This document shows positions 18,210-61,887 of a stretch of DNA of 64,000 nucleotides, piece after piece (position 1 is the first letter of the stretch; every line of letters begins with the position of its first letter). A program made the position numbers and the translations under genes. The notes under the pieces were generated by a model that was not told the origin of the DNA, did not search any database, and saw nothing but the letters and a program-made list of their open reading frames with translations. This stretch comes from Neckera pumila (Eukaryota; Streptophyta; Bryopsida; Hypnales; Neckeraceae), in assembly GCA_963969595.1 (NCBI GenBank), contig OZ018416.1:4666065-4730064 (forward strand). Reading direction: 5' to 3'.

Positions 18210-18647
18210 CAGTCATAGGGCGTTATTTTAGCCCAGGCTAGGGCACTGGCCGTATATGGTCCACTTGGCGCCCTACTGTGGGGCTGCTTTAAGGAAAACG
18301 CCGAAATTTTTTATTTTTCACGCATAACAAAATTTGCAAATTTTGAATTCATATTTACAATCATAGGCCCTAATTTCGTGAGGAGAGGTGTATAAGGTAA
18401 ATTAATCAAGCACAAAATAGGGAGTCTTTTTTTTACATGCACCTCTGGAATGACTTTGTGGGGGATTGAGAGAAGGGGTTAGTCCGCCCTGGCTGTGAAT
18501 GGAGAGTTAGCTAATCATCTTTTTGTCTTTCTTTTCACATGTCATTTGGTTGTTGCCTAAGCTTTTATTCATTTAATTCGACAAAAAGCCTAATTTTATT
18601 TTTGGCATTCCAGTCATTTCTTTAACTTTGCAAAAGCAATCAATTAA

Positions 18648-19206
18648 CCCCTAAAGTCCCATTGTCGATTTTGGGCAGGTTCCTATGAGCTCAATTTTAG
18701 TGAAACTTCTTGAAACTTTCCTATAAGATAGAAAAATTTATTAGCTTTTTGGAAATGTAATTTTTATTTCAATCGGTGCACGAGAGCAAAAGTTATGCTA
18801 CAATAACCTCAAACAAGGGAGACCGGGCAGCAAAAAAAATCCATAAAAAATTGAAATAAATTATTTAATTATTTTTCTCTAATAGAATATGTTTTTGTCT
18901 AAATAGGAAGCTTTGATTCATTCCATTTGGATTAGTGATGCAAAATTTATAGAGTTTCTTGTTTTGCGGGCAATCAAAGCGTTTTACTGAAAAAAAAACT
19001 TTTTCTTTCACTTTGATTGTTGATATCTTTCAATCCGTACTATTAGACATCATGAAATTTTACCACATGATCTGAGAAAAGCATAGTACAAGATCTTGCA
19101 GTTAGATTCTAAAAAAAATATAATGTTTTGATTTCTTGGATGAAAGCAACAAGAGTAGCAGTTTTGAGTGATTTTTGAAAGAAAAATGGCCTTGGGACTT
19201 TAGGGG
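18648..19206 (+). mobile_element. TTAA-flanked element, group II, 559 bp
   Basis: Ends are CCCCTAAAGTCCCA and the inverted TGGGACTTTAGGGG, flanked by TTAA at 18644-18647 and 19207-19210. The duplicated segment at 38.66 kb has the empty site: 'gcaaaagcaat' then TTAA then 'ga.gtcaacaaa'. Internal text matches the longer group II copies at 2363-3235 and 54293-55213, but is about 360 bp shorter. No coding sequence. Confidence 0.9.
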
Positions 19207-19639
19207 TTAAAAGACAACAAAGAAAATTTATAACACAGTTTGAATCACTAAGTTAAAAGCAATTCATCAATTTAAGCAATTGTACACTACTATATATGGC
19301 TAGCAGGTTTGGCTTAAATTAATTAAATTAAAAAAATAAAATGCCAAAGTTTTTGCTAATTTTGGAACCAGACAACCAAATCAACAAATAAATGTGAAGA
19401 TGGTTTATCAAAAATCCAAAGAATCCATTAACAATCTATTAACAATCCATTGAGTCAACTAACAATCTATCATTTGATCATCTACCATCAAGAATTTTTT
19501 TTGATGGCAATATGAAGGATTGCTTCATTGACATTTTGTGAGAATGATGAAGAGTATAAGGTTGTTTTTATAATGAGATCCATTGTTCATCATATGAATC
19601 CTCAAAGGATATAGGACAATTTGAAGATGAGAGCTTAAG

Positions 19640-20095
19640 CATTCATTTTCAAGAACACAGGAATTGTGTTTAAAGCATAATAGAATAATTTTTTTAAACC
19701 TTTGAACTAAGAAAAGTTCAAAAATCAAGCTTGGTTTCATCTTCCAAAAAAATGTTATGAGCATAACTCAGAGGGGATGTTTAAAAATGTCAAAGAAAAA
19801 TGTCCCTTCCAATTCCTCTTTGAACTTTGTCCATAATTTTTTATGGGAGGCTTGAAATCTCAATCAGGTTTTGGAGATGAAAGTTAGCTTGATTTTCTAC
19901 ATTAACCTAGCTCAAAGTTAAAAAAACAACTTATTCTACTATGCTTAAATACGATTTGAAATTCTACTTTGACTTTGAACACAACTTTTGCTTTTGCTTT
20001 AACTATGAGCTATCGAACTTCTACTAATCTTAATTTACATATCCGACATAGATTGTTTTACCTCTTACCTTCCCACTTGTATAAAGACCTTGTCC
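19640..20095. repeat. hairpin-family repeat copy
   Basis: A diverged member of the ~600-bp hairpin family; its arms meet near 19800-19830 around 'aattcctctttgaactttgtccataa'. It pairs with 39110-39560 in the duplicated segment, so it predates the duplication. Confidence 0.6.
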
Positions 20096-20950
20096 TCAAG
20101 CATGTCTCCTCATCTCAAGATACTCACAATAATTGGCTTTTGGAGTCATGTGAAACAATTGTTAGATTCTCTTGAATTTAATGTCAAAATTTGAAGACAA
20201 AACCCAATTCTAATTGGCTATATCCTTGGGCTATTTAGTTAGGAACCAACAAAAGCTTATGTGGATAAATTGAAATTTACTTGCTATTAATGGTGATAGG
20301 ATAAAAAAATACCATCATTTCTTTTTTATAAGTGATTCATTTTCTTTACTCCTAGATTTCCGTTCAGTTATATGACCTAAAATTCAAGATTCAAGACAAT
20401 ACTTTATTGATTTCACTCGATTGATTTTCTATTAGCCACTGGATCTTCCCGCTCTTTGACCCCAATTGTTAGCAAAGAAGGTGCACATGCATAAGGCTAT
20501 CCAAAGTTTACATAAATAAAAACTTGTTAAAGAGTGTTTAGGTTTGGTAGGACATTTTCAACACACAATAGAGTTGAGGTTTTTAATTGGAGAAGTTTGT
20601 GTCCACATAGCATAAAGCCAACCACCTTGTTGTACATAAAGGCATGTAGAATTGTTCATTATGGATAGGTGACATATTGAATTGGTTTGAACTCTCACTT
20701 AAATTTTGAAGGCCTTAAATTCATTTACCAATTATGATAGTACGGGGTGAGAAAGATCCATTAGATTGGCAAGGTATACACTATTTTATTCAATAATGTC
20801 CATATCCAATGTAAATAAAAAAAGGTTCAACAAAATTGTTGCTAGATGAATTACTAATACATTTAGAGGTTATTTTTGTGCAATGGAGTTGTGCATTATT
20901 TATTATACCATTGAATTGATATTTTTCATTCATATGTAATCAACCATTGT

Positions 20951-21505
20951 TTTTGTAAAAAGCTTGGTCTCTCTAAAGGCACTTCAAACAAGGTCCTACA
21001 TAATACTTTTTAATAAGGTAAACTTCACTTCAAAAAATCCACAAAATTTGCAAAATAATAAGTGTTTTTTATTTTTATTTTTAAAATTTATGATTTTTAT
21101 TTGTCTTAAAAAAAAAGGGTATCTCTAATTATAATTTGACTCTATCTACACACATCATCTTGAATGGTTTTTAAATCTCTCTAGCTTAGGTGCATAGAAG
21201 TCCGCCCTAATAAAATCCTCAAAATTTCTAAAACTTGATAAATGGCAAGGTTGACATTGGGTGATAAATTGCAAAAGCAATTTAAGCTAATTCAATAAAG
21301 TTTTTTTTGTCTCAATTGTCTCTACTAACCTAGCTCCTTGGATATAATATCCCTCCGTTATTCATGCCATTCTTAGTCTGTTAGAGCACACTAGCAATCA
21401 AAATTTAGACAATAATGAAGGACAAAAAGTCCATTCCTCATTGAAACCCTTCCCCTTAGTAAATTCCTCACCAAATTCAAAACAAACTACATATTTTGAA
21501 AGCTA
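20951..21505. other. AT-rich stretch without a gene
   Basis: Nothing beyond A/T-rich text is visible. It lies between the end of one duplicated segment and the start of the next. Confidence 0.5.
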
Positions 21506-21652
21506 TGAGAAGAGACAAAAGGTGTCAAATTTTCAGGTGCACGGTTTAAAAAAAAAAAAATGTTGTAAAAAGCTTGAAATAAGAAATTAAAATTGTGGTT
21601 AGAAGGCTCTAGAAGTTGTTGGAAGTTCACCACCAATCTACCACCAATTTAA

Positions 21653-22963
21653 CCCCTAAAGGACCAAACACCATTTTTTGGCAACATAGTGATTTTGGGT
21701 AGCTTACTACGAACGGAGTTTTTATTTTTTTCTTTGAAATTTTCACACAACATGTGCCCAAGGAGTAGCTTTTAGGTCCAACAATTTTCATAACTTTTGA
21801 CTACACGGATAAAAAGTTATTGCATGATATGTAGTTTTTGATACTCGGAGGGTAGCTTGGGTAGCTCAAAAAACTTCCTTAAAAATCGCTTTTTAAAAAA
21901 TAAAAAATTGAGAGTGGTTCTAAAGAAATATTTAGAAGCATAAAAGTTTGAATCATTCCATTTTGTTTAATGAGATGAGAGTTATGAGTAATTCCATTTT
22001 GCGGGTAGGCATGGAGTCACTGGATTCCAAACCTACCCACAAATTTGAATCCCTCATAGCTCTCATCTCATTAAAAAAAATGGAGTGATTCAAACTTTTC
22101 TACTTCTAAATATTTCTTTAGCATCACTCTCAATTTTTCAATTTTCAAAAAAGTGATTTTTAAAGAAGTTTTTTGAGTTGCCCGAGCTGCCTGCCGAGTA
22201 TCCAGAACTACATATTCCCTCTGTCCCACTAAAAAACTCCAAATCAAGCACAATTTTTGTCTCATTAAAAAGCTCCGTTTTTAGATTTCGATTGTTGGGT
22301 AAGTGTTGGCCGTGTTGAATGACCTCGTGGGGGCAAGTCAAGTGATTAGGGAGCATTCTTTGCCAAAAATTTTTGGCCTTGCCCATATGAGAAACCTTGG
22401 ACTCGTTGTGCTTCCTTAGATAGTAGTATTGACAATGGATTTGGTGACCACTTTGACACTTTGAAGAGTTGTTCTTGAAGTGGTGTAGGGATCTTTGGTG
22501 TAGGTATTTAGGTTGCAATAGATGTTTCTAGAATTCCAATGTTGCTACCAACATTTAAATCATCAAGAATGATGGAGCTAGCAGCATTTACAAATTTTGT
22601 CAAAAACAATACTTTCCGCATGGATTTTGGGTGCCTAAACGACGGTGCCTAAGTTTGAGATTTTGCAAAGATCAAAAGGATGGGATGTTAGTTTTTGAAT
22701 GCATGTATCCCTATTAGAAAGACTAAAAATGTAGTTAATCTTTCATGGGGAAGCTTTTTGGAGGTTTTTAGTGGGACAAAGGGAGTATCATGCAATAACT
22801 TTTTAATTGTGTAGTCAAAAGTAGTAAAAATTGTTGGACCTAAAAGCTACTCCTTGGGTACTTGTTGTGTGAAATTTTCAAAGAAAAACAAGAAAAACTC
22901 CGTTTGTAGTGAGCTGCCCAAAATTGCTATGTTGCCAGAAAACGAGGTTTGGTCCTTTAGTAC
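21653..22963. mobile_element. TTAA-flanked foldback element with nested Stowaway
   Basis: The left end is TTAA (21649-21652) plus CCCCTAAAGGACCAAA. The right end is TTTGGTCCTTTAGTAC plus TAA, a decayed version. The two arms (about 21653-22005 and 22030-22963 minus the nested MITE) are reverse complements, folding near 22015 (GGGTAGG...CCTACCC). Each arm resembles the outer half of group I elements such as 30777-31701. The paralogous segment near 57235 lacks the element, reading 'accaccaat' then TTAA. Non-coding. Confidence 0.85.
22215..22785. mobile_element. Stowaway (Tc1/mariner) MITE, 571 bp
   Basis: The terminal inverted repeats TTCCCTCTGTCCCACTAAAA and TTTTAGTGGGACAAAGGGAG match the Stowaway/plant mariner terminus (CTCCCTCnGTCCCA). 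TA lies on each side (22213-22214, 22786-22787). It interrupts one arm of the foldback; removing it restores the arm text 'actacaTAtcatgcaataac'. No transposase. Confidence 0.92.
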
Positions 22964-25079
22964 TAATCTACTCTCAATCTATTGAATATTGCTTGATTTG
23001 AGGTGCTTTCATGTTCTAAAGATCAATTTAGAGCCAAAACAATGTTGGCGATGTTGATGAGTATTGTACATTTCTAAAAAATAGTTTATTGTAGAATTGT
23101 GCTTCATATGGATCAGTCCTTCAAGGCCTAACAACTTCTTCACAATGGAAGTTTTCAGTGAGTCATCCCATTTTGATATTTATTTTCACAAAGATGTGCT
23201 TGAAATTTTCAATTTAACCATACAAAAGTAAATAGTACTTTGTCAGTATGCACAGAATTAATTGTGGAAAATATTGACCGTTGAACTTTTAGATTAAAAC
23301 AATTTTGGATGATCAGCTTATAGGCAATAAACAAAGCTTTTAGGGATGAAAAATTATAAGAATAATGCTTTTTTACCCCCCAATGTTTTTTATTGAAATC
23401 TACAAGAAATCATTATTTTTTAATTTTAAAAATAAAAAATAAAAACCTCTCTCAAATTTGTACACATTTTAAATAAAAGAAAAAGAAAGCCAAAACTAAC
23501 CAAATTGGATTCTATAAAATTTTAAATAATTTATATATGCGTTAGTTTTTGAAATGTAAAGATTGATATTATTATCATATTGTTTTGAACATCATCAAAG
23601 AAATTTGGAATCATTCTAATGATTTTGTGTTCTTGATCACACTACATTTGAAGCTTATATTTTTAAAATTCCTAAAAGTACAGCTCTGAAAGAATTCCCT
23701 CTAAACCTTGTTTGTTTGTGCAAACCAAAGACTAGATATGTCCAAGAAAATATTTTTTTTCCATCCCCACTATTCCTTTTATAGTAAAAATTATGTTTGC
23801 TCCCTTTTTCTACAAGACTACATTTCCTAAATAAACTTTTCAATTATATTTCTCACATTGAATTTTGAAAATTCAAAAAATGCATCAAGTCAATGTGTCA
23901 ACTTGTTATTCTACAAGATCCTACTTTACAAAACATTGAGATTTGTTTCACCCTACCAAGGATCTGCCATTGAAAATTTGAAAAAGACACATTGTGTGAT
24001 CTCAGTGCTTGAGGGGTTAAAGGCATGATTGATGGAGCATTTGTCTACCTAACACCTCAAATTTTAGTACATTTTCTCCCCTTTTTCTTAGCTTCTAGAA
24101 TATGGAATTGGTTTTAAAGTTTGGTGGAAAATTGACTTTGTGGGAAACATACACCATTATAACCAAGCCATGGTTTTCCCCATGCACGGAAGATACTATG
24201 CTATGCTAGATACCTAGAAGGAACTTCTCAACTAGTTCGTGGATAAATTGGGATTGGCTGAGGAGCCATCAATAAGACAATTTTGTTCATTGTAGGAGGT
24301 CTCCTTTTCAAAAGTGGCAAAAGGGATCCCTCCCTCATTGGTATACAATGTTACAGTCCCAAGGAATGGACTTTTTTGGTCCCTAATTCTAACACAATAG
24401 TCAAGAACCAAAGGGGCTGTGGAAATTGTACTCCATGTGTCTCAAAAATAAATAAAATAAATCCGTGATACTCCCATTGAAGAAACCACGGATACAGACA
24501 GAGGGAGTAGTCGTTCTGTGCTGTGGAAACAAGGTGCACTTGCCACAAGGCCCTCGTGGAACCTTAGTCATGTGGTCAATTCCAATCGTGGAAGTTGTTA
24601 GAGACTCCATTGTCATTGAATGTGATCTTCATGGCAATGGGAGATTGGGAAGATTGGGAGGTCTACGAGTCTACAACACGAAGATGCAGGGATGCTTTGT
24701 ATATCCGACACTTTGTCCGATACATTGACAGGGTCAAATGGGCGTTTTGGAGAATGAGGGTGTTGCTTTTTCAAGAAATTTACATAGAGTTTTTCCAATC
24801 AAGTAGCTTGAATCAGTATTTTCAGTATAAACATTCACTAAAGTACCGTGCCTGATCTGCCAATCCATCGCCACCTTTGGCAGGGCTAGGGGGATCGCCG
24901 GTGCGGTTTACGCCCAAGGAATACACTGGAATTCTTTATTTGCCACCCATAATAAAATCTGGAAATATTGTATTCGAATTTGCAATCGGAGGTTCCAAAT
25001 TAGGTCGGAGAGGTGATGAAATACAAAATTAGCGTCGATGGCAGCAACCTAGAAGCAATTTTTACATTTGCCTCGACAA

Positions 25080-25180
25080 GGGCCGGCAAAAAAGGGGGTC
25101 AATCCCCCGTTCGAGAATGAGGGGTCAATCACCCCTGGCCGGGAATCCGGGGTCAATCCCCCCCTGGCGGTGGGGCTAGG
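25080..25180. repeat. GC-rich GGGGTCAATC triplet repeat
   Basis: Three spaced copies of 'ggggtcaatcnccc' are separated by CTGGCCGGGAATCC-like text. The same cluster is in the paralogous segment at 63033-63100. It lies about 1.4 kb upstream of the receptor kinase reading frame. Its function is unknown. Confidence 0.6.
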
Positions 25181-25199
25181 CCTTAAACTATGTCTGCAT

Positions 25200-26604
25200 T
25201 CTACGAATCTACTCTCCCTCCCTTCATGGACACAAGGTTCCAGGACAATCTACAAATGGCCTTGTAGCAGCACGCATTCGCAATTTATTTTGTGTCGGCA
25301 ACTATCTGCGAAGCTTCAAATTTTCTGTGAATTCAATGCCGACCTTTGAATGGTGCAGATCTTGGTGGTGCAGCGGCGCACTTTCTCAAGACTGAAATTC
25401 AAGCAGGGCAATGTAGCTGGACTGACTGTCGAGGTTCCCGTACTTGCTCATGGCTTGCAGTTTCAGGTGCTGAGCAGGATGCTGGAATTGGCTGAAACTT
25501 GATGCAAGATGTAGAGTTTGGTATAGAGGACGGCAAGATTGCAGACTAGATTATTTGGGGTAGTCAATAGCTGGCAAATAGTACGCAGCTTGATACCGGC
25601 GATCTTCTCCTCCACTCACTAGACGATTTGGATCTCCGCTTCTTTGGCTGTGGTGGATGAGAGCTCTGTTGGCGAAATCCTAGTTTGAGGGGATCCGAGT
25701 GATATGTCGTCTACTTTCATTCTCTTGGTAAGATTCCCACTCTCTGTATGTGCTTCGTGAACTTCAATATAACTTGTTTCATTCGGAAGCTTGGCCCCTG
25801 TGTAAAGTGTTGATTGCAATTTGTGACAAGATTGTGCCATTTAGAATCGTACTGAGCATGTAATCTAAGTTAGATTAACATTTCAGTTGCCTCCTGGACT
25901 CCCATGCTTTTGATTCCTCCCGTAGTTTCCCAGAGTTACTTGAGTAACTGAACCTATACTGTGGAGAACATTAGCCCTTCGGACCCAATTTCCGGTATTT
26001 AGGATAGAGGATACTGTTTGCGTCACTTTTCAGCATTTTAACAGTCATACGCGAGGGTTTGTGGAAGATTTATAGCGCTGTAGACGGAGAGAACACGGTG
26101 GGTATTGGAGTCAAATATGTTGTGATCAAATTTTTGTCCCTGTTTCATTTCAAAGGGGGAGGGTTGTCTAGAACTTCACTAGAAGTGATAGAAGAGAATC
26201 CCATTTCTGTTTAAACATCGGTGGTCATAGACATTTGCCCAATTCATGCTCACACCACTTGCTTTTTGTAAGTCCAACTTAGTGTACGTTGTTGTTGGTG
26301 ACAGGGATGAACTTCCGATCCAAAATCAGGTTTCTGACGCGTTTAGTATCCTCTACCTTGCATTGAAATTTTGATTCCATTCACTTAAATATGGCCAAAT
26401 TTGAATATTTTTCTCTCCATGCAGACTTGCTTGAGTTAAAATTATGCTTTCCACAATGGCTTGGTTTCTCAATAAACTACAGCTCAATACCTCGGCGAAG
26501 ATAAAACCTAGTGGTCTTGGAGCCCTCACCAAAGCCATTTCTGATGCTCCACAGTTCTTTGATTTTAGTATGAGATGAGATCCCAAGACGGGAAGAAGGT
26601 CACA
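25200..26604 (+). promoter_or_regulatory. upstream region of the lectin receptor kinase, conserved in the duplicate
   Basis: Strongly conserved with 63160-64000 but without a shared long reading frame. Splice-donor-like CTTGGTAAG at ~25725 also occurs in the duplicate as GTTGGTAAG at ~63698, so a spliced 5' leader is possible. No clear TATA box could be assigned. Confidence 0.35.
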
Positions 26605-28623
26605 ATGGCCCTCAACATTGTGTTCCTCATGCTTTGTTGTGCCTCATTCTTCCCTTCCGTCAACGATAACTTCACCATCCCCACTCGCTTAATGCCCACC
26701 GACATCAACTGCTTAGACTCCTACCAGTGTAACTTTTTCCCTGACAATTAAACGATCGCCATCATCAACATCACAGACCCGAAGCAAGCTTCTTCAAGAG
26801 TCGTCTACTACATCACTCTTGTCCGCATGAAAGACCCCTCCACCAACACCGTCGCCTCCTTCAAAACCAGCTTCACCTTCCGAGAAGACCCCAAGAATTA
26901 CAACTCATCAGCAAATTCCACAGCCATGAAAACTTCCAAAAGTGGGGATGGCTTCACGTTCATGTTTTCAAATTTCAGTACATGGAGAGGGGAACCAGCA
27001 GGTTGATTCGGCATCTTCTCTCTCGTCCTTGAAAACAACCTCCGAGTGGCAGCCATTGAGTTTGATAGCTGGTCTAGTGTTGACACGGATCCAAATCTGT
27101 TGCAAGAAGAGCATGTAAGACTGGACATTCGAAGTGCGATCTCGGTCGACACTTGCTTCTTGTATGTGAAGAACAAAATAGGGATTACGTTCTGGAACAG
27201 GTCTATATCGTATGCGTGGATTGAGTATGATGGGGCAACAAGTAATTTGCAGGTGAGATTGGCGAATACTTCTTCAAGGCCCAGTGTGGCGCTTATCAAC
27301 TGCACTTACGATTTGAGTGATGCTGTGGATAAGAAGATGTGGATGGGATTTTCGGGTTCGCATGGGGATAACTCGTCGGTGTATTATATCTATAATTGGA
27401 CGTTTACGAGCTTTGGGATTGCAAGCGAATTTGCAGCAGAGTCGTCGAAGGCGAGCGCGGGGCTCATTGCAGGAGTTGTCTCTGGTGGGATTTTGTTTGG
27501 GAATCTCACCGTTGGGGTTTGTGTGTATGTAAATCGGAAGAAGAAGCGTGCCCGTGAGGAATGTTGGGAGATTAGCGAGATGATCGAAATGGCGGGTATG
27601 CCTGAGTTTATTAGCTACAAGCACCATGGCCACGAAACAGTTCAGCAACCAGTCCAAACTCAGAGAAGGCGGGTTCGGGAGTGTGTACAAAGGCGTATTA
27701 CCCAAGACGGGTGCTGAAGTTGCTATAAAAAGAGTATGCAACGACTCTCGACAAGGGGAGCGAGAGTTTCTAGCTGAGGTTAAGATCATAGCCAACTGTG
27801 GCATCGCAATGTTGTGGAGTTTGTGGGATTCTGCAGAGACAGAGGCAAGTTCTTGCTATTGTATGAGCTTTTGCCGAGAGGTTCTCTGGATCAAGCTTTG
27901 TTCAAACCAAAAAACTGAGATGAAGTTCTTTCGTGGAGTAAAAGGTGGAAAATTGTGTCTGGTACTGCTGCAGCTCTTCACTACCTTCATGAAGGATGGC
28001 GGCAACAAGTGATCCACCGTGATGTGAAGTCGAGTAACATCATGTTGGACGAGGAGTACAATCCAAAACTTGGAGACTTTGGACTTGCACGTCTCGTGGA
28101 CCATGAGAAGATCGCGTCAACCACAATGGTGGCTGGAACGTATGGATACATTACTCCAGAAGCTGCTGGTGGGAAATTCACGGATAAAACGGATGTGTAC
28201 GCATTTGGAGCTGTGGCATTGGAACTCGCCTGCGGAAGAAAAGCTTACAAGGCTAGTGTGGAAAATGACGCAAACTTGGTGTTGGTGGAAATGGTGTGGA
28301 GACGGTTAAAAGATGACCAGCTTCTCACTGTTGCGGATCCCTTGTTGAATGCTAATTTCGATTATGAGCAAATGGGTGTTGTTTTGAAATTAGGTTTGCT
28401 GTGCTCGCATCCGGATCCTGCGTGTCGACCTTCGATGCGGCAGGTTGTGCAGGTATTGGCTGGGGATGCGGAGGTGCATGATTTGCCGGACTCTCGGCCT
28501 GATGCTTCAGCTTTCTTAAGGCAAAGCATTCCACATCTTTCGATCGATGACCTCTTGAGCTCCAGATCTGGGACGCAACACTCTGGTGACAACGAGATTG
28601 AATCAGAATTGTTTTTTAGGTGA
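26605..28623 (+). pseudogene. L-type lectin-domain receptor-like kinase, inactivated
   Basis: A plasma-membrane receptor kinase: extracellular legume-lectin domain, one membrane helix, cytosolic Ser/Thr kinase. The ATG at 26605 starts a hydrophobic signal peptide (MALNIVFLMLCCASFF). The lectin domain shows SFKTSFTF, GDGFTFMF and IEFDSW...DPN. The membrane helix (AGLIAGVVSGGILFGNLTVG) is followed by RKKKR. Kinase parts are REGGFGSVYKG, VAIK, HRDVKSSNIM, DFGLARL, GTYGYITPEA and DVYAFGAVALEL; the usual APE is TPE. Breaks: TAA 26749-26751; TGA 27004-27006; a frame change near 27624 at the lectin-kinase junction; a second near 27797, just before HRNVVEF; and TGA 27916-27918. The last 220 codons are open to TGA at 28621-28623. 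Length, about 670 codons, is normal and there is no intron, as usual in this family. The conserved upstream region suggests another copy just beyond the window end. Confidence 0.92.
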
Positions 28624-30776: not shown

Positions 30777-31701
30777 CCCCTAAAGGACCAACATGCATTT
30801 TTTGGCCGTATAGAAATTTTGGGCAGGTGCGTGTGACTAGAGATATCTATATTTGAGGCTGAAATTTTAATAGAAGGTGGGGGCAAGGAATATCTTCATG
30901 TGTACCAAGTTTCATGACATTTCAAAATACGAGTCAAAAGTTGTGACCTAATATGTTACTTTTTTTTTGTAACCGGGCAGTTTGGGCAGATCGGAAAAAA
31001 TCATTTTTTCCAGAATTTTTTTTTTGAAATTGGTTCTCTACATTTATATATACTTAAAAAGCTTTGGGTCACTCCATTTCAATCAATGAGTCAAAAGTTA
31101 TGAGGGTTTTTGAAATGCGGGCAATTATGGATTCTCTACTCTAAAAAAAACTTTAAAGTCGTTTATTTAACTCAATTTTCAATATTTTTGGAAAAAAATA
31201 AAATCCTAGGATGTAGATTGATTATTACAACATTACAACCGTTGGGATTGGCATTTTTAAATGCCATGATTAAATTTTTAACAATTTTGAATTTTGAATC
31301 ATTTTCTACTTCTTTCTACTTACTATTTTTTTCCTATATGTTGGACAATTCCAAATGATGTGAAATTTTTCATGCATATAGAAAACTTGTTTAGGAAACT
31401 GAATCCAAAGAAGCACCACCTTTATTGGCATTTTTTCATTGAAAAGTGAGCTTGCAAAGTGCAGCTGCCCGGTTTTTTGCAGGATTGAAAAAACGGTTTT
31501 CAAGACTTTGAATGCTTATATCTTATGATCCACACCGTGGAATTTTCTGAAATTTTTACAACATGTTTTCAAAATATCATACTACAAGATCCTACAGTTA
31601 CATGTGTCAAAAATTGTTTTTTTCCAAAAATTTGGTAGTTGTAATAGAAATGGCAGTTTTAGAGCGTTTTTGGTGATTACATAGTCATGAAACTTTAGGG
31701 G
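30777..31701 (+). mobile_element. TTAA-flanked element, group I, 925 bp
   Basis: Ends are CCCCTAAAGGACCAACATGC and CATGAAACTTTAGGGG, flanked by TTAA at 30773-30776 and 31702-31705. Inverted identity is short (about 9-13 bp). Internal landmarks in order: ATTTTGGGCAGGTGCGTG, CCGGGCAGTTTGGGCAG, 'gagtcaaaagttatgagg', TGCGGGCAATTATGGATTC, GTGCAGCTGCCCGG and AATGGCAGTTTTAGAGCG. Copies at 44545-45468, 55520-56431 and 60434-61360 are in the opposite orientation. No coding sequence. Confidence 0.9.
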
Positions 31702-38559: not shown

Positions 38560-40370
38560 TATTTGGTGGTTCCCCTATATTGTTTGATTGTTGCCTAAAC
38601 TTAGTCATTTAATTTGGCAAAAAATTTAATCTTTTCTTAAGTTTGCAAAAGCAATCTGTTAAAGATGTCAACAAAAGAAATTGCAGCTCGGTTCAAATTA
38701 CTAAGTCAAATGCAATTCATCAATAATTCAAGGCAATTTCTACACTATTGTATTTGGATAGCAGGTTTGGCTTAAATTAATTAATTAAAAAAAAGTGTCA
38801 AATTTATTTGTTAATTTTGGGAGTTGAGATTAGACAATAGAACCTACAAAATATTGAAAAGATGGTTTTTCAAAAATCCAAAGAATCCATTAACAATCCA
38901 TTGATTGAAATACCAATCTATCATTTGATCATCTAACATCAAGATTTTTTTCATAGCAATATGAAGGAATTGCTTTTCATTGACATTTTGTGAGAGTGAA
39001 GAGTAGAAAGATTGTTTTTATGATGTATCCATTCTCTATCATGAATCCTCAAAGAGTCTGGAACAACTTCTAGATGAGAGCTTGACTGCTCATTGTCAAA
39101 AATGCAGGAGTTGTGTTCATAGAACTTTAGACCTCATGGGTGTAGTAAAACTACTTTTTTCAAAAACATTTGAACTAAAAAAAAGTTGGATATCAATCCA
39201 AGTTTCATCTACAAAAACCCGTTTGTGATTTTGAGCCTCCAAAAAAGAAAGTTATGAGCAAAACTCAGAGAAGATGTTTGAAAATGTCAAAGAAAATTGT
39301 CCCTTCCAACCCTTCTTTGAACCTGTAAATTTTTATTGGACACTTGAAAACCTCAAACGGTTTTTTGGAAATGAAAGTTATCTTGATCTTCTACATTAAC
39401 TTTGTTCAAAAAAAATTTAATTTTAATTCTTCTATACCTAAATGAGGTTTGAATTATTTTGAACATAATTCTTGCTTTTGACTTCACTATGAGTAGTTGA
39501 GCTTCAACTAATCCAAATTTACATATTCCACATGGGTTGTTTTACTTCCTATCTTCCCACTTGTATGAAGATCCTGTCTTCTCATCTCAACACACTCACA
39601 ACAATTGGCTTCTAAAATTATGTGAGACAAGTGTTTGATTTTTTTGAATTTAATGTCAAAATTTGAAGACAAGTTCTAACAATTTCTAATTGGCTATACC
39701 CTTAGGCTACTCAGCTGGGATCCAAGGGTAGCTTGTGTTGGGCATTTAAATCCTCTTGCAAAATCCTTGTTTATTTTTCAAAAGCGATTCATTTTTTTTA
39801 CTTCTATTTTTTCATTTGGTTGAACAACCTAAATTTCATGATTTAAGATGGTAATTTATTGATTTCACTCAGTTGATTTTTCAATAGCCGCTAGATCTTC
39901 CTACTCATCGACACCAATAGTTTGCAAAGAGAGTATTTAGGCATAAGAGTGTCCAAAGTTTTAGAGAATTTTTTAAAGAATGATTAGATTTGGTAGGACA
40001 TTTTCAACACACAGTGGAGTTGAGGTTTTAAGTGGAGAAGTTTTCATCCACAAAGCACCAATCCAACCACCTTGTTGTATATGAAGGCATATTAGATTGG
40101 TCATTATTGATATGTGACATATTGAATTGGTTTGAACCCTCACATAAATTTTGAGGCCTTAATTTTTCCAAATATGATAGTATTGGGTGAAGAAAATCCA
40201 TTAGATTGGCAAGGTAGATACTATTTTGTTCAAGAATGTCTATATCCAAAATAAATAAAAAAGGTTCAACAAAATTGATGCTGGATGAATTACTATTAAG
40301 TTTAGGGATTATTATTGTCCAATGGAGTTGTGCATTATCTATTGTACTATTGAATTCATATACTTCAAAG
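38560..40370. repeat. duplicated segment, copy 2 (pairs with 18540-20900)
   Basis: Collinear with copy 1 but lacking the TTAA-flanked element. The site at 38658-38661 reads 'caatctg' TTAA 'agatgtcaac', the unoccupied form. A minus-strand 145-codon frame at 40028-40465 is not conserved as protein in copy 1, so I treat it as chance. Confidence 0.85.
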
Positions 40371-40657: not shown

Positions 40658-41901
40658 GAGCATCGCCACCGCAAGACTCGCCAAGGAGGGGCACCAAGTG
40701 GGGTTTTGGTGAGTGGATTTGAAGAGTGGGGCTTTCCCACTCTTCCTCTGTCCCACTGCTGACACGCCAAACATGGGCGTCAAATATATAATACGTGCCA
40801 GATATGTAATGCAAAAGATTTTGATGGTTTTAAAATTAAACTCAAAAAACTTTTATTTAGTTCATTGAGAGCTAGATCACATTGTTTCAAAGGCATTTCC
40901 AACTTAGTTTGTATTTTTGAACTAATAGAGAAGCTCACTATATACACATAGGGTGGTAGGAGGTAGAACAAACAATGTGGGATAAGTAAATTAGATGTAG
41001 TAGGAGCTCCACCACTCATAGTTTATTCAAAAGTAAGAATTGTGTTAAATGTAGAATTTTAGACCTCATTTAGGCATAGTAAAATATTGTTTTGCAAAAA
41101 ACATTGAACTAAAAAAAGTTGTTAAATCAAGATAAATTTCACCTTCAAAAATTAATTTGTGATTTTAAGACTCTAATCAAAAGTTATAGACAAATTTCAA
41201 AAGAAGGTTAGAAGGGATTTTTTTTTTACATTTGTAGAAATGTATAGTAGAAATTTGTCCATAACTTTTGATGAAAGATTCAAAATCTCAAACGGATTTT
41301 TGTATATGAAATTTGACTTGATTATAAAACTTTTCTCAGTTCAAGGTTTTTTGAAAAAAGTGAATATACTATGCCTAAATGAGGTCTAAAATTCTACATT
41401 TAACACAATTCTTACTTTTGAATAAACTATGAGTGGTGGAGCTCCTACTACATCTAATTTACTTATCCCACATTGTTTATTCTACCTCCTACCACCCCAT
41501 GTGCATATAGTGAGCTACTTTTCTCACTTGGAATTCAACAAAAGTTGAAAATACTTTCAATCCAATTTTGATAGACACAAGTAAAGGAATTTTCTTGTAG
41601 TCAAAATTATTTTTTTCCTTTGTTTTTCATAAAAATGGAAGGAATTTCATAGCAATTAAACTTTTTAAATAACATTTGACTGCCATTTGGGCCTGTCAAT
41701 ACCTCAAAGTCAGGGTATAAAGTGGAGTCAAACCCATGGCGAGGCTTGCCAAGGCCTCCTCATTTGCCCGTCCGCTCTTCAAATTTTGAAGTGTCCGGGC
41801 ATTTCTAGCGAGTCCATGTGCCTGCGATGGGAGAAATTACTGGGCCTGACGTGCTAATTAGGAAAGTCAGCCTCACTTGGCTCCTTGCGGTGGTAATGCT
41901 C
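40658..41901. mobile_element. PIF/Harbinger-type element (1244 bp) with TTA duplication
   Basis: Ends are GAGCATCGCCACCGCAAG and CTTGCGGTGGTAATGCTC, flanked by TTA at 40655-40657 and 41902-41904. It is an opposite-orientation copy of 10022-11267, almost the same length, and contains the same hairpin (about 40925-41515). The different flanking triplet (TTA here, TAA there) shows independent insertions. No coding capacity. Confidence 0.88.
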
Positions 41902-44544: not shown

Positions 44545-45468
44545 CCGCGAAAGTTCCTTGACTATGTTCTCACCAAAAATGCTCCAATATTGCCATTTCT
44601 AATACAAGTACCAAATTTTTGAAAAATCTCATTTTTGGACACATGTAATTGTAGAATCTTGTAGTACTTTGGTTTGAAAAGATGTGGAAAAAATTGCAGA
44701 AATTTTCACCGTATAGATTGCAAGATATTAGCGTTTGAAAGTGGCAAAAGTCCTTTTTTTGGCCCTACAAAAAACTGGCAGCTGCACTTTACAAGGTAAG
44801 ATCATTATGAAAAGTTTTCCAAAATGTTGTGCTTCTTTGGATTCATTCTTCAAGGCAAGCTGGCTATATGCTTGAAAATTTTCAAACCATTTGGAATTGT
44901 ACAACATATAGGAAAAAAATATTAAAAAGAAAGAAATAGAGAATGATTTTAAATACTAAATTGTTGAGAATTTTGTTTTGGAACTGAAAAATGCCAATCC
45001 CAATGGTTGTAATGTTTTCATAAACAATTTACATCCTATGGGTTGTTGTTTTAAAAAAAATATTGAAAGTTAAACAAAATAATCAACTTCAAAGTTTATT
45101 TTAGAGTAGAGAATCCATAACTACCTGCAAACTGAAACTCCTCATAACCTTTGACTCATTGATCAAAATGGAATGATTCAAAGCTTTCTACGTATATATA
45201 AATCTAATAAATCAATTCCAAATTTTCATTTTTGAAAAAAGTGATTTTTTCTAATCTGCCCACACTGCCCGAGTTGAGAAATAAACTACATATCATGCAA
45301 TAACATTTGACTCATATTTCCAAATGTCATAAAATTTTGTACATATGAAAGATATTCCTTGTCCCCACCGTCTAGTAAAATTTTAGCTTAAAATATGCAA
45401 GTCTCTAGTCACACGTACCTGCCCAAAATTTCTATGTTGCCAAAAAACACATGTTGGTCCTTTAGGTG
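44545..45468 (-). mobile_element. TTAA-flanked element, group I, 924 bp
   Basis: Flanked by TTAA at 44541-44544 and 45469-45472. The left end CCGCGAAAG has drifted from CCCCTAAAG; the right end is GGTCCTTTAGGTG. Reverse complement of the order in 30777-31701, including TGCCATTTCTAATACAAG near one end and CTGCCCAAAATTTCTATG near the other. Non-coding. Confidence 0.88.
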
Positions 45469-54075: not shown

Positions 54076-54292
54076 AATTGCCACATATGTCTCACATTTC
54101 AATACAAAGATTCAGTTCATCAAGTGGGAGGTCAGCTAGGCCATATACCTGGTCTACAGACTATACTAAGAGCCTAAGAGGTCTAAACTCTCTGGCTATA
54201 TACTGGCTGAAATTTTTTCAACAATTCAAGCTCTGTTTTGGTTCTAACACACTACAAGTATCCAACCACTATAAGAAAAGGGAGTATTTTAA

Positions 54293-55213
54293 CCCCTAAA
54301 GGACCAAGGCCTTTTTTCTGCCAAAAAACTCTCAAAACTGCCATTTCTAGAGCAAAGAGTAAAAAAATTTAAAAATTGTTTTTTTTGCACATCTAACCAT
54401 AGGATCTTATACCTAACTAGTACATGAGAATGTGTGGAAAAAATTTCAGAATTTTTGACCGCACAGATTGTAAGATATTTGCATTTGAAGTGAAAAAAAC
54501 AAGTTTTTGAGCACATTGCGTGACTAGATTTTTTGACTTTGAACATTTTTGACTTAAATTTTTTGCCCTATAGAGTTTTGAGCTTTAAATCTTTCTAGTG
54601 AAGAATTGAGTTGAGAGTCTAAGGAAAAAAAAGAAATTCAAAAATCTTAATTTTCATTCTTAAAAAAATTGTTAAGTAGAAGTAGGTACAAGATAGAAGG
54701 AAAATCTAAAATATTAATATCTTTTAGATGGAATTAGAATGCACTAATCCCAATGGTGAGATTGTTCTAGCACAAAAACTAAACCATGTGGAACTTTTTT
54801 TTTTAAAAAATTGCAAAAATGCATTCCAAAATGAATCCTACAAGTTATTTTTTTCAAGAAGATGCTCTAATTGCCCAAAAAACAAGATTGTCTATAACTT
54901 TTTCATAAAAAATCCAAATGAAATGAATCAAAGCTTTATTAATAGACAAAAATATAATCTATAAGGAAAAAAATTTAAGAAAAAAATTAAATTTTTTGCA
55001 AGTTTTTTTTGCTGCCCCTTCTCCCTTGTTTTGAGCTTATTTGGGCATAACTTTTGTTCCCGGGCACCGATTGAAAAAAATCTATGTTTCCACGAAGCTT
55101 ATTAGTTTTTCTATCTCTAAAAAAAGTTTCAGAAAGTCATGACAAAAATTCAGCCCGTAGGTACTTGCCCAAAATCCCATTTGTCTCCCGAACAGACAAT
55201 GGTCTTTTAAGGG
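54293..55213 (-). mobile_element. TTAA-flanked element, group II, 921 bp
   Basis: Ends are CCCCTAAAGGACCAAGGCC and GGTCTTTTAAGGG, flanked by TTAA at 54289-54292 and 55214-55217. It is the inverse of 2363-3235 over nearly all its length and of 18648-19206 in part (TGCTGCCC, 'gcataacttttgttcccgg', TTGCCCAAAATCCCATTTG). Non-coding. Confidence 0.88.
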
Positions 55214-55519
55214 TTAAATGAGTTTTGCAGTATCGTCCTAGAAATAAGGTTATAAGTAATAACCTTTAAAGAGCTTTCAATAAAAATTTACTAGAAACAT
55301 ATGCATCTCTAATAAATTTTTATTGAAAATCTCTTAAAAGGTTAGTACATATAATCTTATATTTAGGACTACATTTGAAAACTCACTTAAAACATCCCCT
55401 TCTTGTGTAGTGAACTGAATTTGCTTACAACAAAACTAGACTAGACAACTCGAAAATTTAATAGTTATATGTTCTAGCTTCAAGTCAAATCTCAAAAGTG
55501 AAGGTAGGCCATCCATTAA

Positions 55520-56431
55520 CTCCTAAAGTTTTATGACTATGTTTTCACCGAAAACGCTCAAAAGCTGCCATTTTTAAAACAAGTACCAAATTTTTGAAAA
55601 AAAACTTTTTTTGACACATGTAATTGTAGGATCTTGTAGTATTCTGACTTGAGAATATGCAATAAAATTTGAGAAATTTCCATGGCATAGATTGCAAGAT
55701 ATAAGCATTCAAATTCAATGAAATTATTTTTCTGGCATTGCAAAAAAACAGAGCAGCTATACTTTACAACCTCACTTTTCTATCCAATTCATGGTGCTTC
55801 TTTGGATTCTTCTTCTTGGATAAGTTGGTCACATGCTTGAAAAATTTCACATCATTTGGATTTTTACAACTTATAGAAAAAAAATAGTAAGTAGAAAGAA
55901 GTAGAAAATGATTCAAAATACTAATTTGTTAAGAATTTAATTATAATGGAATTGAAAAATGCCAATCCCAATGCTAGCAATGCTATGATAAACAATCTAC
56001 ATCCTATAATGTGTTTTTTCAAAAAAGATTGAAAATTGAGTAAGATAAAGGACTTCAAAGTTTATTTTAGAATAGAGAATCCATAACTGCCCGCAAACAA
56101 AAAATGCTCATAACTTTGACTCATTGATCAAAATAGAATGATTCAAAGCTTTTCACATATATATAATTCTAGAAAACTAGTTTCAAATATTTGTTTTTGA
56201 AAAAAGGGATTTTTTCTTAAGTGCCCGGATTGCCCATTTACGAAAAAAGTAACATATTAGGCCATAATTTAGACTCATATTTTCAAATGTCATGAAATTT
56301 AGTGCATATGAAAGATATTTCTTGTCCCCGCCTTCTATTAAAATTTGGGTCAAAAATATGGAAATCTCTAATCAAACATACTTGCCTAAAATTTCTATGT
56401 AGCCAAAAAATGCATGTTGGTTCTTTAGGGG
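55520..56431 (-). mobile_element. TTAA-flanked element, group I, 912 bp
   Basis: Flanked by TTAA at 55516-55519 and 56432-56435. Ends are CTCCTAAAGTTTTATGAC and GGTTCTTTAGGGG. Same order as 44545-45468 and 60434-61360. It lies about 300 bp from 54293-55213 without overlap. Non-coding. Confidence 0.9.
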
Positions 56432-56742: not shown

Positions 56743-56820
56743 ATGGTGATCAAGGGGCATTACAACAAGATCACGCTTATGATTCACAAAGATGGAACAA
56801 TTGAATCCGTGGCATTTGAG
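56743..56820 (+). other. possible short leader exon
   Basis: An ATG frame of 26 codons (starts MVIKGHYNKITLMIH) ends in GAG|GTAAGCC, a good splice-donor context. It lies about 260 bp before the conserved block with the hairpin at 57078-57102, as the frame at 1080-1142 precedes the related block at 2251-2340 (there by about 1.1 kb). Unrecognised; may be chance. Confidence 0.25.
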
Positions 56821-57029
56821 GTAAGCCTTTGATTTTATTTTCTCCATTCTTTTTATTTCATAAAAATTATTGATTTAGGATCATTTTTGGCTTGGCTTAG
56901 CCCAAGCCAACCGTTATTACTAATTTATAATTGAATTATTTAGAAATTGCACTTGGGCAAATTTAAAAAGTAGAAAAAGTAACATCTACCCTTTACTTAG
57001 AAGGTGTAATTGGACGGCACGCTAGACAT

Positions 57030-57102
57030 CCACTAGGAATTTGACCACAATAGAAATTTAGAACCCAGTTGTGTGTACTTTATCCTAAGGGTGAGGATAA
57101 AG
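57030..57102 (+). repeat. conserved block ending in a covarying hairpin
   Basis: A diverged copy of 2251-2339: CACGCTAGACATCCACTAGG, then CCCAGTTGTG, then a perfect 9-bp stem (57078-57086 with 57094-57102) around the loop AAGGGTG. Stem bases differ from the first copy at about five pairs, yet pairing stays complete. Confidence 0.5.
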
Positions 57103-58183
57103 CGCCCACATGTGTCAAATTTTGAGGTGCACAATATCAAAAAAAGAAAAGTCATAGTAAAAGAATTTAGAAATAACAATTTAAAATTGTAATTAGAAGG
57201 TTTTAGAAGTTGTTTAAGTGAAATTCACCACCAATTTAATTAACACTACTTTGTGGCACTTTCTAGTTCTAAAGATCAATCTAAAGCTAAATCAGTGTTG
57301 GTGGATGTTGATGAGTATCACACATTCCTTAAAAATAGTTAGATGTACAAGTGTGCTTCATGGCGGGGATTAATCTCTCAAGGCCTAATAACTTCTTGAT
57401 TATGGAGGTTTTCAATGAGTCGTCCCACTTTGGTATTTTTTGGCACTTGGAAGTGTTTGAATTTTGAATTTTAACAAAAATAAAGAACACTTTTTCTAGT
57501 ATATACATAATTAATTGTAAAAAATACTGACCACTAGATTTTTAAATTATAAATTTTTGGATGATCAACTTGTAGGCAAAAAACACAATTTTTGGAGAAG
57601 AAAAATTACAAAAAGATGATTAATGACCTTTCCCCCCAAATTGTTTTATTGGAATCTAAAGTAAGTGAAGAATTTTTTAATTTAGAAATGAGAAATAAAA
57701 CCTCTCTCAAATTCATATATATTTTCAAATAAAAGAAGTAGGACACCAAAACTGACCAAATTGGATCCTATAAAATTATAAATAATTTATCAATGCGTTA
57801 ATTTTTTAAATTTAAAGATTAATATATTATTTGGAACATCATCAAAAAAATTGGAATAATTCTAGTGATTTTGTGTTCTTCATCCCATTAGCTTGAACCT
57901 TATACTTTTTAAATTGCTAAAATTATAACTTTGAAAAATTCTCTCTAGACTTGGTTTATTTGTGCAGACCAAAGACTATCGAGAAATGTCTTAGAAAATA
58001 TTTTTTCCCATCACCACTATTCCTTTAATTGGGAAAAAATTATGCTTGCTCATGTATTCTACAAGACTACATTTCCTAAATAGATTTTAAAGTATTTTTT
58101 ACATTGAAATTTTGAAAACTGGAATAATGCAACAAGTGTGTCAACTTGTAACTCTACAAGACCCTACTTTACAAAATATTGAG

Positions 58184-59193
58184 GGGTGATTGCATTTTGA
58201 AACATGTAGAAAATTATTTTGGTGGCTTTTTTGGTGAATGACCATCTTCATAAAGATGTTACAAATGTCCAATTTTTATTTATTTATTTACAAATTTTTC
58301 TATTTTTTACTAATTAAAACATCAAAATATGTATTTTTTTGAGATTTGGTGCTTTTCTAGTTCTCCTACTTAGAGAATTTTTCTATGGTTTTCCTTTAGT
58401 AGGGTACCTTCCTTTAAAGGACAGACCCATAACACTGGTTTCAAGCCATTCTGCCTATCACTCAGTTTTCTATCCTAGATATGAATGAAAATTTTTATAT
58501 TTCTTTTTCAAAGACAGAACTCTACATGTCTTCTATACTTCATAAACTTTTTAGATTTTTTTGTGAATTTTTTTTTTTAATTCTGAAGAAAAAGTGCAGA
58601 AAAATCATATCAAATAGAAAAATATTTCAAAAAATCTGAAAATTTCACCATGTTTGTATATTACGGTGACAAACATCATAGTGTAAACTCAATTTCTATA
58701 TCATTAGATAAATAGAAAATAATAAACATTGAAAATACATCCAAAGTTCAAATTAAAGTATTCAATATTAAGAATTTTTTTCAAAATTCAAATTGGAGTA
58801 GAAACTAGAGTAGATGACCTTCATTTTGTTAGTTGGGCTTAAACTCAAAAATATCATTTTTGTGGAGAAATTTCAGATTTAGAGCAAGGAGCAACAACTT
58901 CCCAAAATACACTAAAATAGCATATTTTGTAATCCGTTTTTTTACTAACTTCTCATTCACTTGAAGACAAGCACTGGAAAGACTACAAATTCAATTGAAT
59001 ACTCTTCATAACTCACCATAGAAGGTCAACAAGGGAAAGGGGGATAGAAAAATGCTTCCAATCGCTTTTCATCTCCCCTAGATTGTCATCCAAACGCCAC
59101 TGAGTGGCACTGGCAGCATTTCAGGCTTAAATTATTCCAAAGAAAAGAAGGCATGAATATCGACGAAATCGACAAGTGTTTCATGCAATCACC
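58184..59193. mobile_element. 1.0-kb insertion with GGTGATTGCAT ends
   Basis: The left end GGGTGATTGCATTTTGAAAC and the right end GTTTCATGCAATCACC are inverted. TTGAG stands on both sides (58179-58183 and 59194-59198). Copy 1 of the segment has the single unoccupied TTGAG near 23938 ('aaaacattgagatttg'). The interior matches 29640-30355. A 5-bp duplication does not fit the common plant superfamilies. Non-coding. Confidence 0.75.
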
Positions 59194-59537
59194 TTGAGAT
59201 TTGTTTCATCCTACCGAGAATTTGCCATTGAAAATTTGAAAAAGACACATTGTGTCCTCTTAGTCTTTGAGGGGTTAAGGTAATTACACCTAAAATCACA
59301 GGGTTCCTAAAATTGCACACTGGATATTGGCTTGCTTAAAATGTACTCCCACTGTTCATATGACTCTATGATTGGTTTTAGGTACACCTATTTTCAGCAC
59401 TTTGGAAATTCGTAGTTTATTCACATAGGTGTCCAAAAAATGCATTCTAAAAGAATCTAGAATCCCCTTTTGACTACCAATGGGACCCCACAATTTTTTT
59501 TTCAATATGATAGTGAAAACCATGCTGAATTGCTTAA

Positions 59538-60429
59538 CCCCTAAGGGCCCAAAGTCCCCTTGGGGGAAACTTGAGATTTCGGACAAGTTCCTTGAATGTG
59601 GATTTTTGACATGATTTTCTGAAACTTTTTGTGAGCGTGTAGTTTGTCAAGAGCTTTGCGTACATATGTGTTTCATAGAAATCCGACATGATTTGTAGAA
59701 GTTACGATGTTGTTTACCATCAGAGCAGTTTGCAGGGCAGCTGGGGCAGCAAAATTACCGTTTGACTGTACAGGGGCAGCAGTAGTGATAAAAAGAATGG
59801 AGGAGGGGAGGGCTGCTTCCCTTTCTACAAGGACTGCCCAGTCCAGAACCTTGTATTGAGGCCGCTGCAGACTTCTGTTGCTCATAAAAACCTCAAATTT
59901 TTCACTTTTTTCAAAAAAAAATTCTCCTGCTTGTCAAGTACAAGTAAATCTTTCTATCCACCGTTCGGATTTTCAATATCTATAAGCATGTGGTGGGAAA
60001 ACTGATTTGAAGATGGTCTAGTGCATTGTCATTTTCTGGGACATTGTGGCATTACAAGTTTTTTTTCCATGTGTTAGGTATGTTGGATTCATCTGAAAAT
60101 TGGTATGCATATGCCTAACTTCATTACCTATAAGAAAAAAATTTAATCCTATGGTGTATAGTGCAAAAAATTTCAACACAAGGTGGTCAAAGGCATCTGA
60201 AATTCTGGGGCATAGTGGAAAAAAAAAAAACTTTGACTTTGAATGCCAATATCTCTCAATTCATACGGTGAAACCTCACAAAATTTTCTCATCTTCTCAT
60301 ACAAGTTAGCTTGAAAATCCAATGGTTATATTTTCAAAAAATGTATTTTCAAAACTTCGGCAACAAACGTAGCAAAAAGGGTTATTTTTAGTGATTTTGG
60401 AGCCAAAAAATGGCTTGGGTCTTTAGGGG
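59538..60429. mobile_element. TTAA-flanked element, group III, 892 bp
   Basis: Ends are CCCCTAAGGGCCCAAAGTCC and GGGTCTTTAGGGG, flanked by TTAA at 59534-59537 and 60430-60433. Internal text (GGGCAGCTGGGGCAGC, 'ccgttcggattttcaatatc', 'ggtatgttggattcatctg') differs from groups I and II, but both end regions follow the same layout. Its right TTAA is also the left TTAA of the next element. Confidence 0.85.
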
Positions 60430-60433
60430 TTAA

Positions 60434-61360
60434 CCCCGAAAGTTCCATGACTATGTATTCACTAAAAATACTTCCAAACTGCCATGTTTAGTACAAGTAC
60501 CAAATTTTTTTTTTTTTTTTTTTTTTTGAGACATGTAACTGTAGGATCTTATAGTAAACTAGTTTTAGAAGATGTGGAAAAAATTTCAGAATTTTCCACC
60601 ATGCGGATTGGAAGATATTAGCATTTGAATTGGCAAAAATCCTTTTTTTGTCCCTGCGAAAATCAGGGCAGCTGCACTTCACAAGGTCACATTTGTTTGA
60701 AAAAATGTCCAAAATGGTGGTGCATCTTTGAATTCTTTTTCCTAAACAAGTTGGCTACATGCCTAAAATTTTTCAAATCATTTGATATTGTACAACATTT
60801 ACAAAAAAAATAGTAAGTAGAAAAAAGTAGAGAATGATCCAAAATACTAAACTATTAAGAATTTAATTAAAGGAATTGAAAAATGTCAATCCCAATGGTT
60901 GTAATGTTGTAATAAACAACCTACATCCTATGAATTTATTTTTTTCAGAAAATATTAAAAATTGAGTTAAATAAACAACTTCAAAGTTTATTTCAGAGTA
61001 GAGAATCTATAACTGCCTGCAAACTAAAAACCCTCATAACTTTTGACTCATTGGTAAAAATGGAATGATTCAAAGCTTTCCATGTATATATAACCCTAAA
61101 AAAACAATTTCAAATTTTTATTTTTGAAATAAGTGATTTTTTTTTATCTGTCCGAACTGCCCAATTACGAAAAAAAGTAACATATTTGGCCATAACTTTT
61201 GAATCCTATTTTCAAATGTCATGAAATTTAGTGCATATGAAAGATACTCCTTGCGCCCACCTTCTATTAAAATTTTAGCTTAAAATATGCAAATTTCTAG
61301 TCACACGTACCTGCCCAAAAATTTTATGTTGCCTAAAATTGCATGCTGGTCCTTTAGGGG
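60434..61360 (-). mobile_element. TTAA-flanked element, group I, 927 bp
   Basis: Ends are CCCCGAAAGTTCCATGAC and GGTCCTTTAGGGG, with TTAA at 60430-60433 (shared with the preceding element) and 61361-61364. Same internal order and orientation as 44545-45468. It contains a run of about 22 T near 60507. Non-coding. Confidence 0.9.
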
Positions 61361-61887
61361 TTAACTGTGCGATTTTAGGTGTAGTTACCTTAAAAGGATG
61401 CGGAGCATTTGTCTACCGAACACCTTAGCTTTTAATATATTTTATCGTCCTTTTTATAACTTTTAGAATATGGAGTCGATTTTAACTTTCGAGAAGACTT
61501 GACTTTGAGGGAAACATACCACTGTTATAACAAGGCCGCTGTCCTCCTCACGTTGGAAATATATTATGCTTTGCTAGATACCTAGGAGGGACTTGTTATC
61601 AATTCATTCAAGGATTGGGGGTGGCTAAAGAGCCATCAATAAGACAATATTGTTCACTGCACAAGGGTCTCATTTTCAAAAAGGCAAAAGCAATCCCTTC
61701 CTCATTGATACACAATGTTACGGTCCCAAGTGAGGAATGGACTTTTTTGTCCGCAATTCCAATACAATAGTAAAGGATGAAACGGCCAGCCGTGGAAAAT
61801 GTAGTCCCTCTTTCTCAAAAATAAATCCATGATACTCCCACAGCTCTCCCCAAGAATTCACGGATTTGTTGGGAGACAAAGGGTGTA

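Follow-up and report, generated by a model that had tools for sequence, protein, structure and literature searches.

Non-autonomous piggyBac elements at TTAA sites, and full-length piggyBac copies, in the genome of the moss Neckera pumila

We analysed a 64,000-nucleotide stretch of the genome of the moss Neckera pumila, positions 4666065-4730064 of contig OZ018416.1 (C9:4666065-4730064 in our numbering; hereafter the window), and a family of short elements in it that lie between TTAA tetramers. These copies are almost certainly non-autonomous piggyBac miniature inverted-repeat transposable elements (MITEs) of a plant genome that also holds piggyBac elements of approximately 5.4-5.6 kb encoding a DDD transposase. 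The copies shared their ends and their TTAA flanks, sites without the element carried one TTAA, and near-identical full-length copies elsewhere in the assembly contained an open frame with aligned aspartates. Since full-length copies with an open piggyBac gene are present in the same genome, the moss seems to possess a piggyBac system of its own.

An earlier reading of the window from its letters alone (the sequence-only reading) had described seven full copies with TTAA on either side, and all seven were recovered: e1 (18648-19206, plus strand, 559 bp, with TTAA at 18644-18647 and 19207-19210), e2 (30777-31701, plus, 925 bp), e3 (44545-45468, minus, 924 bp), e4 (54293-55213, minus, 921 bp), e5 (55520-56431, minus, 912 bp), e6 (59538-60429, plus, 892 bp) and e7 (60434-61360, minus, 927 bp). 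They ranged from 559 to 927 bp, and each of their ends adjoined TTAA (14/14); the TTAA at 60430-60433 was common to e6 and e7, leaving 13 separate flanks. The eighth copy, e8 (21653 to approximately 22966, the right boundary being approximate), was a foldback with one decayed end, as had been proposed. It consisted of two L-type ends in inverted orientation, with TTAA retained on the left and the right end decayed, and its interior held a nested insert (approximately 22210-22786) that we take to be Stowaway-like. For the ninth copy, e9 (2347-3235, plus), the description of a single surviving end held and its location at 2363 did not: the left end is gone, the right end, TTAA adjoining TCCCTAGAG, lies at 3235, and the copy is longer than had been supposed. 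Four copies made up subfamily A (30777, 44545, 55520 and 60434), with pairwise identities of 78-81%, and e2 was 92.7-95.4% identical to six copies elsewhere in the genome. Subfamily B comprised e4 (54293) and e9 (2347), which were 80% identical over 903 aligned columns, and in part e1 (18648), while e6 (59538) and e8 (21653) stood apart. No coding potential was found in the MITE interiors of the subfamily A consensus, e4 and e6, which had 10-26 stops per frame in all frames, and neither Rfam nor tRNA scanning found anything in the window. Beside e4, and having its left TTAA in common with it, lies a short foldback (55218-55386), of either TA or TTAA type, with TTAA flanks and the ends RTGAGTTTT.

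The terminal inverted repeat of the family is the 14-bp CCCCTAAAGNNCCA, which begins CCCC. When up to 2 mismatches were allowed, TTAACCCCTAAAG matched the window 19 times, compared to a mean of 3.00 in shuffled sequence (sd 1.96; maximum 10 in 100 shuffles). Twenty-two nine-mers in the window were within one mismatch of CCCCTAAAG, and 13 of these were element ends; TTAA preceded 13/13 of the element ends versus 1/9 of the remaining nine-mers. The exact CCCCTAAAGNNCCA ends in the window were preceded by TTAA in every case (8/8). Each end also carried a subterminal module that was either ATTTTGGGCAGGT-like or CTCAAAACTGCCATTTCT-like, with drift in single copies (9 L-type and 8 R-type window ends compared). 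That a 14-bp repeat and two unlike modules are kept across subfamilies whose interiors align poorly is what recognition by a single type of transposase would predict. No direct repeat longer than TTAA was found in the eight copies compared, where 5-8 of 8 and 3-8 of 9 flanking bases differed, a result that argues against hAT and Mutator, with their duplications of 8-9 bp. The repeat fits the 12-19 bp terminal repeat beginning CCC given for piggyBac in the available parts of PMC2872659 and PMC10813416; relative to the literal piggyBac motif CC[C/T]T, the first four bases here are CCCC, and CCCT lies one base inward.

Duplicated stretches inside the window (21522-26013 with 57112-64000, the large pair, and 19215-20928 with 38669-40367) were used as before-and-after pairs for the insertions. 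The e1 element was absent from the paralogous duplicate of its flanks at 38.5-40.4 kb, and the junction there was a single TTAA (38659-38662), the pre-insertion site. Likewise, e8 was absent from the duplicate at 57.2 kb, in which the left flank and one TTAA (57236-57239) matched and the right flank aligned only roughly, with a gap.

The family was then followed through the whole 339.5-Mb assembly (18 contigs). Exact copies of TTAACCCCTAAAG numbered 28,152 (13,972 + 14,180) versus 15 (4 + 11) for the reversed pattern. Exact CCCCTAAAGNNCCA was preceded by TTAA 17,155 times and by VTAA 693 times; T was therefore the outer base at 17,155 of 17,848 NTAA ends (approximately 96%), which indicates that this base is not random. 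Together with the 14/14 window ends, this supports the 4-bp TTAA target that the sequence-only reading had argued for, and the outcome it had set against its own proposal, TA flanks in random context, was not seen genome-wide at the outer base.

A 210-kb sample was examined as well; it comprised 21 stretches, and contig 1 supplied 19 of these. Sequence related to the window copies made up 23,513 of its 210,000 bases (11.2%) and was present in 16 of the 21 stretches, and reversed queries covered none; because a single contig contributed 19 of the 21 stretches, the 11% figure should be read as a sample estimate. End profiles built from the interior of the window ends, with the flanks left out, detected 51 ends, 40 of which had TTAA in the projected register. 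When the other 11 were inspected by hand, two became TTAA after a shift of 1-2 bases (L022:4556 and L013:8653), one (L025:2734) was an antisense overlap, and the 8 left over showed one or two changes each, never at the outermost base. Twenty two-ended copies, one of them interrupted, were paired by hand; TTAA was present on both sides in 15 (in one after a one-base shift) and on a single side in 5, and an identical non-TTAA tetramer on both sides was present in none. Of eight loci picked for an exact TTAA end, seven had an opposite end (<=2 mismatches, found blind to the flank), with TTAA in 7/7, and one had none in reach. A scan of viral contigs gave 6 matches, none with an opposite end near. 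An inward-facing pair of ends approximately 5.4 kb apart on contig 1 was dropped as a candidate long copy, as it starts with a 923-bp MITE (L033). At C1:284032-289394, a 930-bp MITE (L035) lies between inward-facing TTAACCCCTAAAGTCCCA ends that are separated by approximately 5.4 kb; these ends may bound one long copy or may be unconnected.

Full-length elements were sought through the piggyBac DDE domain, PF13843. Of 872 candidates in the assembly, 116 were scored; the listed matches were all above the cut-off, with a best E value of 4.6e-80, and 35 of the 116 had no stop in the matched part by our own count. None of 14 control genomes gave a match. Seven of the 116 loci were fetched. Two of these, L036 (84-5709, 5,626 bp) and L037 (327-5949, 5,623 bp), were complete elements with TTAA adjoining CCCCTAAAGTCCCA at either end, that is, with CCCCTAAAG ends preceded by TTAA on both sides, and each contained an open frame of 638 amino acids. 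The two were 99.2% identical (5,568/5,612 aligned bases). The L036 protein matched PF13843 (Pfam, E 2.1e-81) and two solved transposases, PDB 6x67 (E 8.4e-36) and piggyBat 9c0f (E 5.6e-24). Its aspartates 291, 382 and 500 lined up with the aspartates that 6x67 carries in its TIDE, CDN and GVD motifs and that we take to be the piggyBac catalytic triad. Its C-terminus has a tail that is rich in Cys and His by eye, and PF13842 was not reported there at E values up to 0.01. The longer copy with the same ends that the sequence-only reading had suggested looking for thus exists, and it encodes a DDD piggyBac transposase and not the mariner or Harbinger enzyme that would have spoken against that reading. 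In addition to what that reading had seen, genes of the driver type are present in the genome, though not in the window. Two further fetched elements also had TTAA flanks: L038 (5,363 bp, ends CCCCTTGGGGACT and CCCCTTGAGGACT) and L041 (5,544 bp, ends CCCCAAAACGTCC and TCCCAAAATGTCC). Paralogous ends at 24016 and 59274 in the window, TTAA adjoining CCCCTCAA and followed by ACACAATGTGTC, resemble the L038 end (CCCCTTGGGGACT..ACACAATGTGTC).

Among the database matches listed for the transposase (120 of 152), the best were metagenome proteins, the first with 61% identity over 85%; the best named match was a sea urchin protein (35%), and no protein named as coming from a plant was included. A tree was computed from 34 sequences, 7 of our own and 27 hand-picked from the 120 listed matches, and was rooted for drawing only. 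A group supported at 100/100 united the 7 own sequences with 16 metagenome sequences and left out the remaining 11; our sequences split into at least two deep lineages.

The MITEs and the full-length elements were connected in two ways. The pattern expected of internal-deletion derivatives was seen in two MITEs: e6 matched the end regions of L036 on either side (positions 1-119 and 393-805, 71-72%), and e4 matched L037 at each end (positions 1-199, 73%, and 876-921, 78%). For e1, the alignment was at the R end. In addition, both full-length elements had themselves inserted at a TTAA within a MITE, of the A type for L036 and of the B type for L037. The interior TTAA of e4 (element positions 368-371) corresponds to the L037 insertion site in another B-type copy, and the uninterrupted e2 and e4, which belong to the same families but lie at other loci than the L036 and L037 hosts, were taken to represent the empty sites. 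We propose that the transposase would recognise the 14-bp CCCCTAAAGNNCCA and the two different subterminal modules, which may be binding sites, and would excise the element and insert it at a TTAA that becomes duplicated. An L036-type transposase may move the MITEs in trans, and excision would presumably be seamless, as with known piggyBac.

Several observations weigh against assigning the window copies to this piggyBac system. CCCCTAAAG ends on both sides were present in only 2 of the 7 fetched piggyBac loci. The ends of L038 and L041 were of other CCCC/TCCC types with TTAA, and L039, L042 and L040 each had one CCCCTAAA-type end, with a second end looked for and not found. Subfamily A aligned with L036 and L037 over part of the R-end region only (67-74%), and its exact parent was not found among the seven fetched loci. 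Of 16 exact CCCCTAAAGNNCCA ends in the 210-kb sample, 12 followed TTAA, 3 followed TTAG and 1 followed TAAA, and perfect CCCCTAAAGGACCA ends after TTAG at L008:1894 and L013:9695 were missed by the end profiles. Finally, most of the check proposed by the sequence-only reading was carried out, and its genome-wide flank counts concern the outermost of the four positions, at which T dominated.

Among the other ways of explaining the copies, the one that comes closest, though it is very improbable, is a TA target of the Tc1/mariner type, with a repeat that begins ACCCC and outer T and A bases that reflect a strong preference. Such a target with fixed outer bases and a TTAA target give identical empty sites, and the base adjoining the repeat does vary, being G at 3 of the 16 exact ends in the 210-kb sample. 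Random context, however, would place V at the outer base in approximately two thirds of cases, and it was seen in approximately 4% (693 versus 17,155 for T); moreover, the master element encodes piggyBac rather than mariner. Elements of the TA type in the window also behave differently. The Stowaway-like insert in e8 used TA within ACATAT, and its empty site is preserved in the opposite foldback arm. In the window, TTAA adjoins both ends of element D (59279-61389; ends GGTAAYTACACC, or AGGTAAYTACACC; empty site at 24017-24020), within which e6 and e7 are nested, but among four partial or full copies elsewhere the three cleanly readable ends were flanked by gtaa, ctaa and ttag. As these outer bases vary, element D was read as a TA-type MITE and was rejected as a second TTAA family.

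A Kolobok transposase would also duplicate TTAA, and Kolobok is reported from chlorophytes and rhodophytes in the accessible portion of PMC9587614, yet we give it even less weight than a TA target: its ends are 5'-RR..YY-3' according to the same portion, versus 5'-CCCC here, and the same ends surround the PF13843 piggyBac gene in L036 and L037. The preference of the sequence-only reading for piggyBac over Kolobok was thereby supported. It is scarcely conceivable that these elements are moved by a PIF/Harbinger enzyme of the kind whose broken gene lies at 12132-13324. Harbinger gene remnants (PF04827) and a NAM-associated protein are present in the window, but the Harbinger-type MITEs here have GAGCATC ends and 3-bp duplications, TAA (10022-11268) and TTA (copy starting at 40658), and a 3-bp duplication cannot produce a symmetric TTAA-CCCC..GGGG-TTAA; the L036 and L037 finding speaks against this driver as well. 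Kolobok, mariner and Harbinger were accordingly rejected as drivers on the ends, the flanks and the piggyBac gene in L036 and L037, no search of the assembly having been aimed at Kolobok. That the Harbinger-type, Stowaway-like and D elements show TWA or TA targets indicates that the method separates such elements from the CCCCTAAAGNNCCA family. Multiplication of the copies through segmental duplication and not transposition has an equally negligible chance of being correct, for all that sizeable duplications occur within the window (for example 21522-26013 and 57112-64000): the flanks of the copies differ beyond TTAA, the element-free stretches carry one TTAA, and relatives were found in 16 of the 21 sampled stretches.

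The piggyBac superfamily is best known from animals, and the high-copy-number MITEs of plants include Stowaway/mariner and Tourist/Harbinger elements, which are short, AT-rich and non-coding, as are those described here. Those two groups differ in their TA and TWA duplications and in their ends, as was seen in the same window. With piggyBac (PDB 6x67), the Neckera elements share the PF13843 DDE domain, three aligned aspartates, the TTAA duplication and repeats beginning CCC; they differ in their land-plant host, in a length of approximately 5.4-5.6 kb versus approximately 2.5 kb (2472 bp in the part of PMC10813416 available) and in an identity of <=35% to named animal relatives among the matches listed. 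Coral CMITEs, as far as the available text of PMC2872659 describes them, are likewise MITEs of piggyBac type that show TTAA, occur in alleles either carrying or lacking the element and include adjoining copies, whereas the present elements are from a plant, are mostly approximately 0.9 kb, have tens of thousands of ends and carry two unlike subterminal modules. Kolobok (PMC9587614, in part) shares the TTAA duplication and differs in its 5'-RR ends and its transposase.

Plants are named among piggyBac sources in the abstract of PMC10813416, PiggyBac stands on a list of plant DNA superfamilies in an excerpt of the review PMC10794571, and section 8 of PMC4438587 counts it as one of the superfamilies present in every group examined, and these groups include land plants. 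A fern repeat table in PMC6890710 gives 1,230 PiggyBac entries (0.00%), and the corresponding part of the yerba mate report, PMC11709435, gives none. Portions of PMC12477816 (brown alga), PMC5963040 (haptophyte) and PMC5199201 were also consulted, and the moss genome paper PMC10619864 contained, in the text available, only "piggybacking" as a word. No plant TTAA MITE family or intact plant piggyBac appeared among the matches listed from titles and abstract starts of the open literature, with subscription papers mostly outside, and the matches listed for a literature search on the end sequences were all unrelated.

Other features of the window include, at 12132-15335, the broken PIF/Harbinger transposase (PF04827) together with a NAM-associated gene. 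The Harbinger fragment matched mostly metagenome proteins, the named matches being from a liverwort (49%), an oomycete (51%), two grasses and poppy. An L-type lectin receptor kinase at 27007-28623 is spread over several frames. Its kinase part (27919-28623) best matched a metagenome protein (88%) and, among named proteins, one from the moss Ceratodon purpureus (66% over 95%), followed by an Ilex protein (51% over 76%), liverworts (54-55%) and then many seed plants. These matches point, with some reserve, to a moss, and a grass host was discarded. A tandem repeat (61886-62250 and 62273-62638) is 98% identical.

piggyBac is an old superfamily that has already been listed for land plants; it is the scale and the open autonomous copies that look new. 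We lean towards the view that this is an old, diversified and possibly still active native piggyBac of the plant lineage, with several autonomous families and with MITEs making up approximately one tenth of the sampled genome, and not a stray or contaminating sequence. Plant MITEs are usually assigned to five superfamilies, and annotation limited to those would miss elements that insert at TTAA. If our reading is true, piggyBac would count as a major force in one or more lineages of land plants, with MITEs occupying approximately 11% of the sampled bases alongside near-identical autonomous copies. It would also offer a natural setting for studying the workings and silencing of piggyBac in plants, as well as its origin there, by descent or by transfer.

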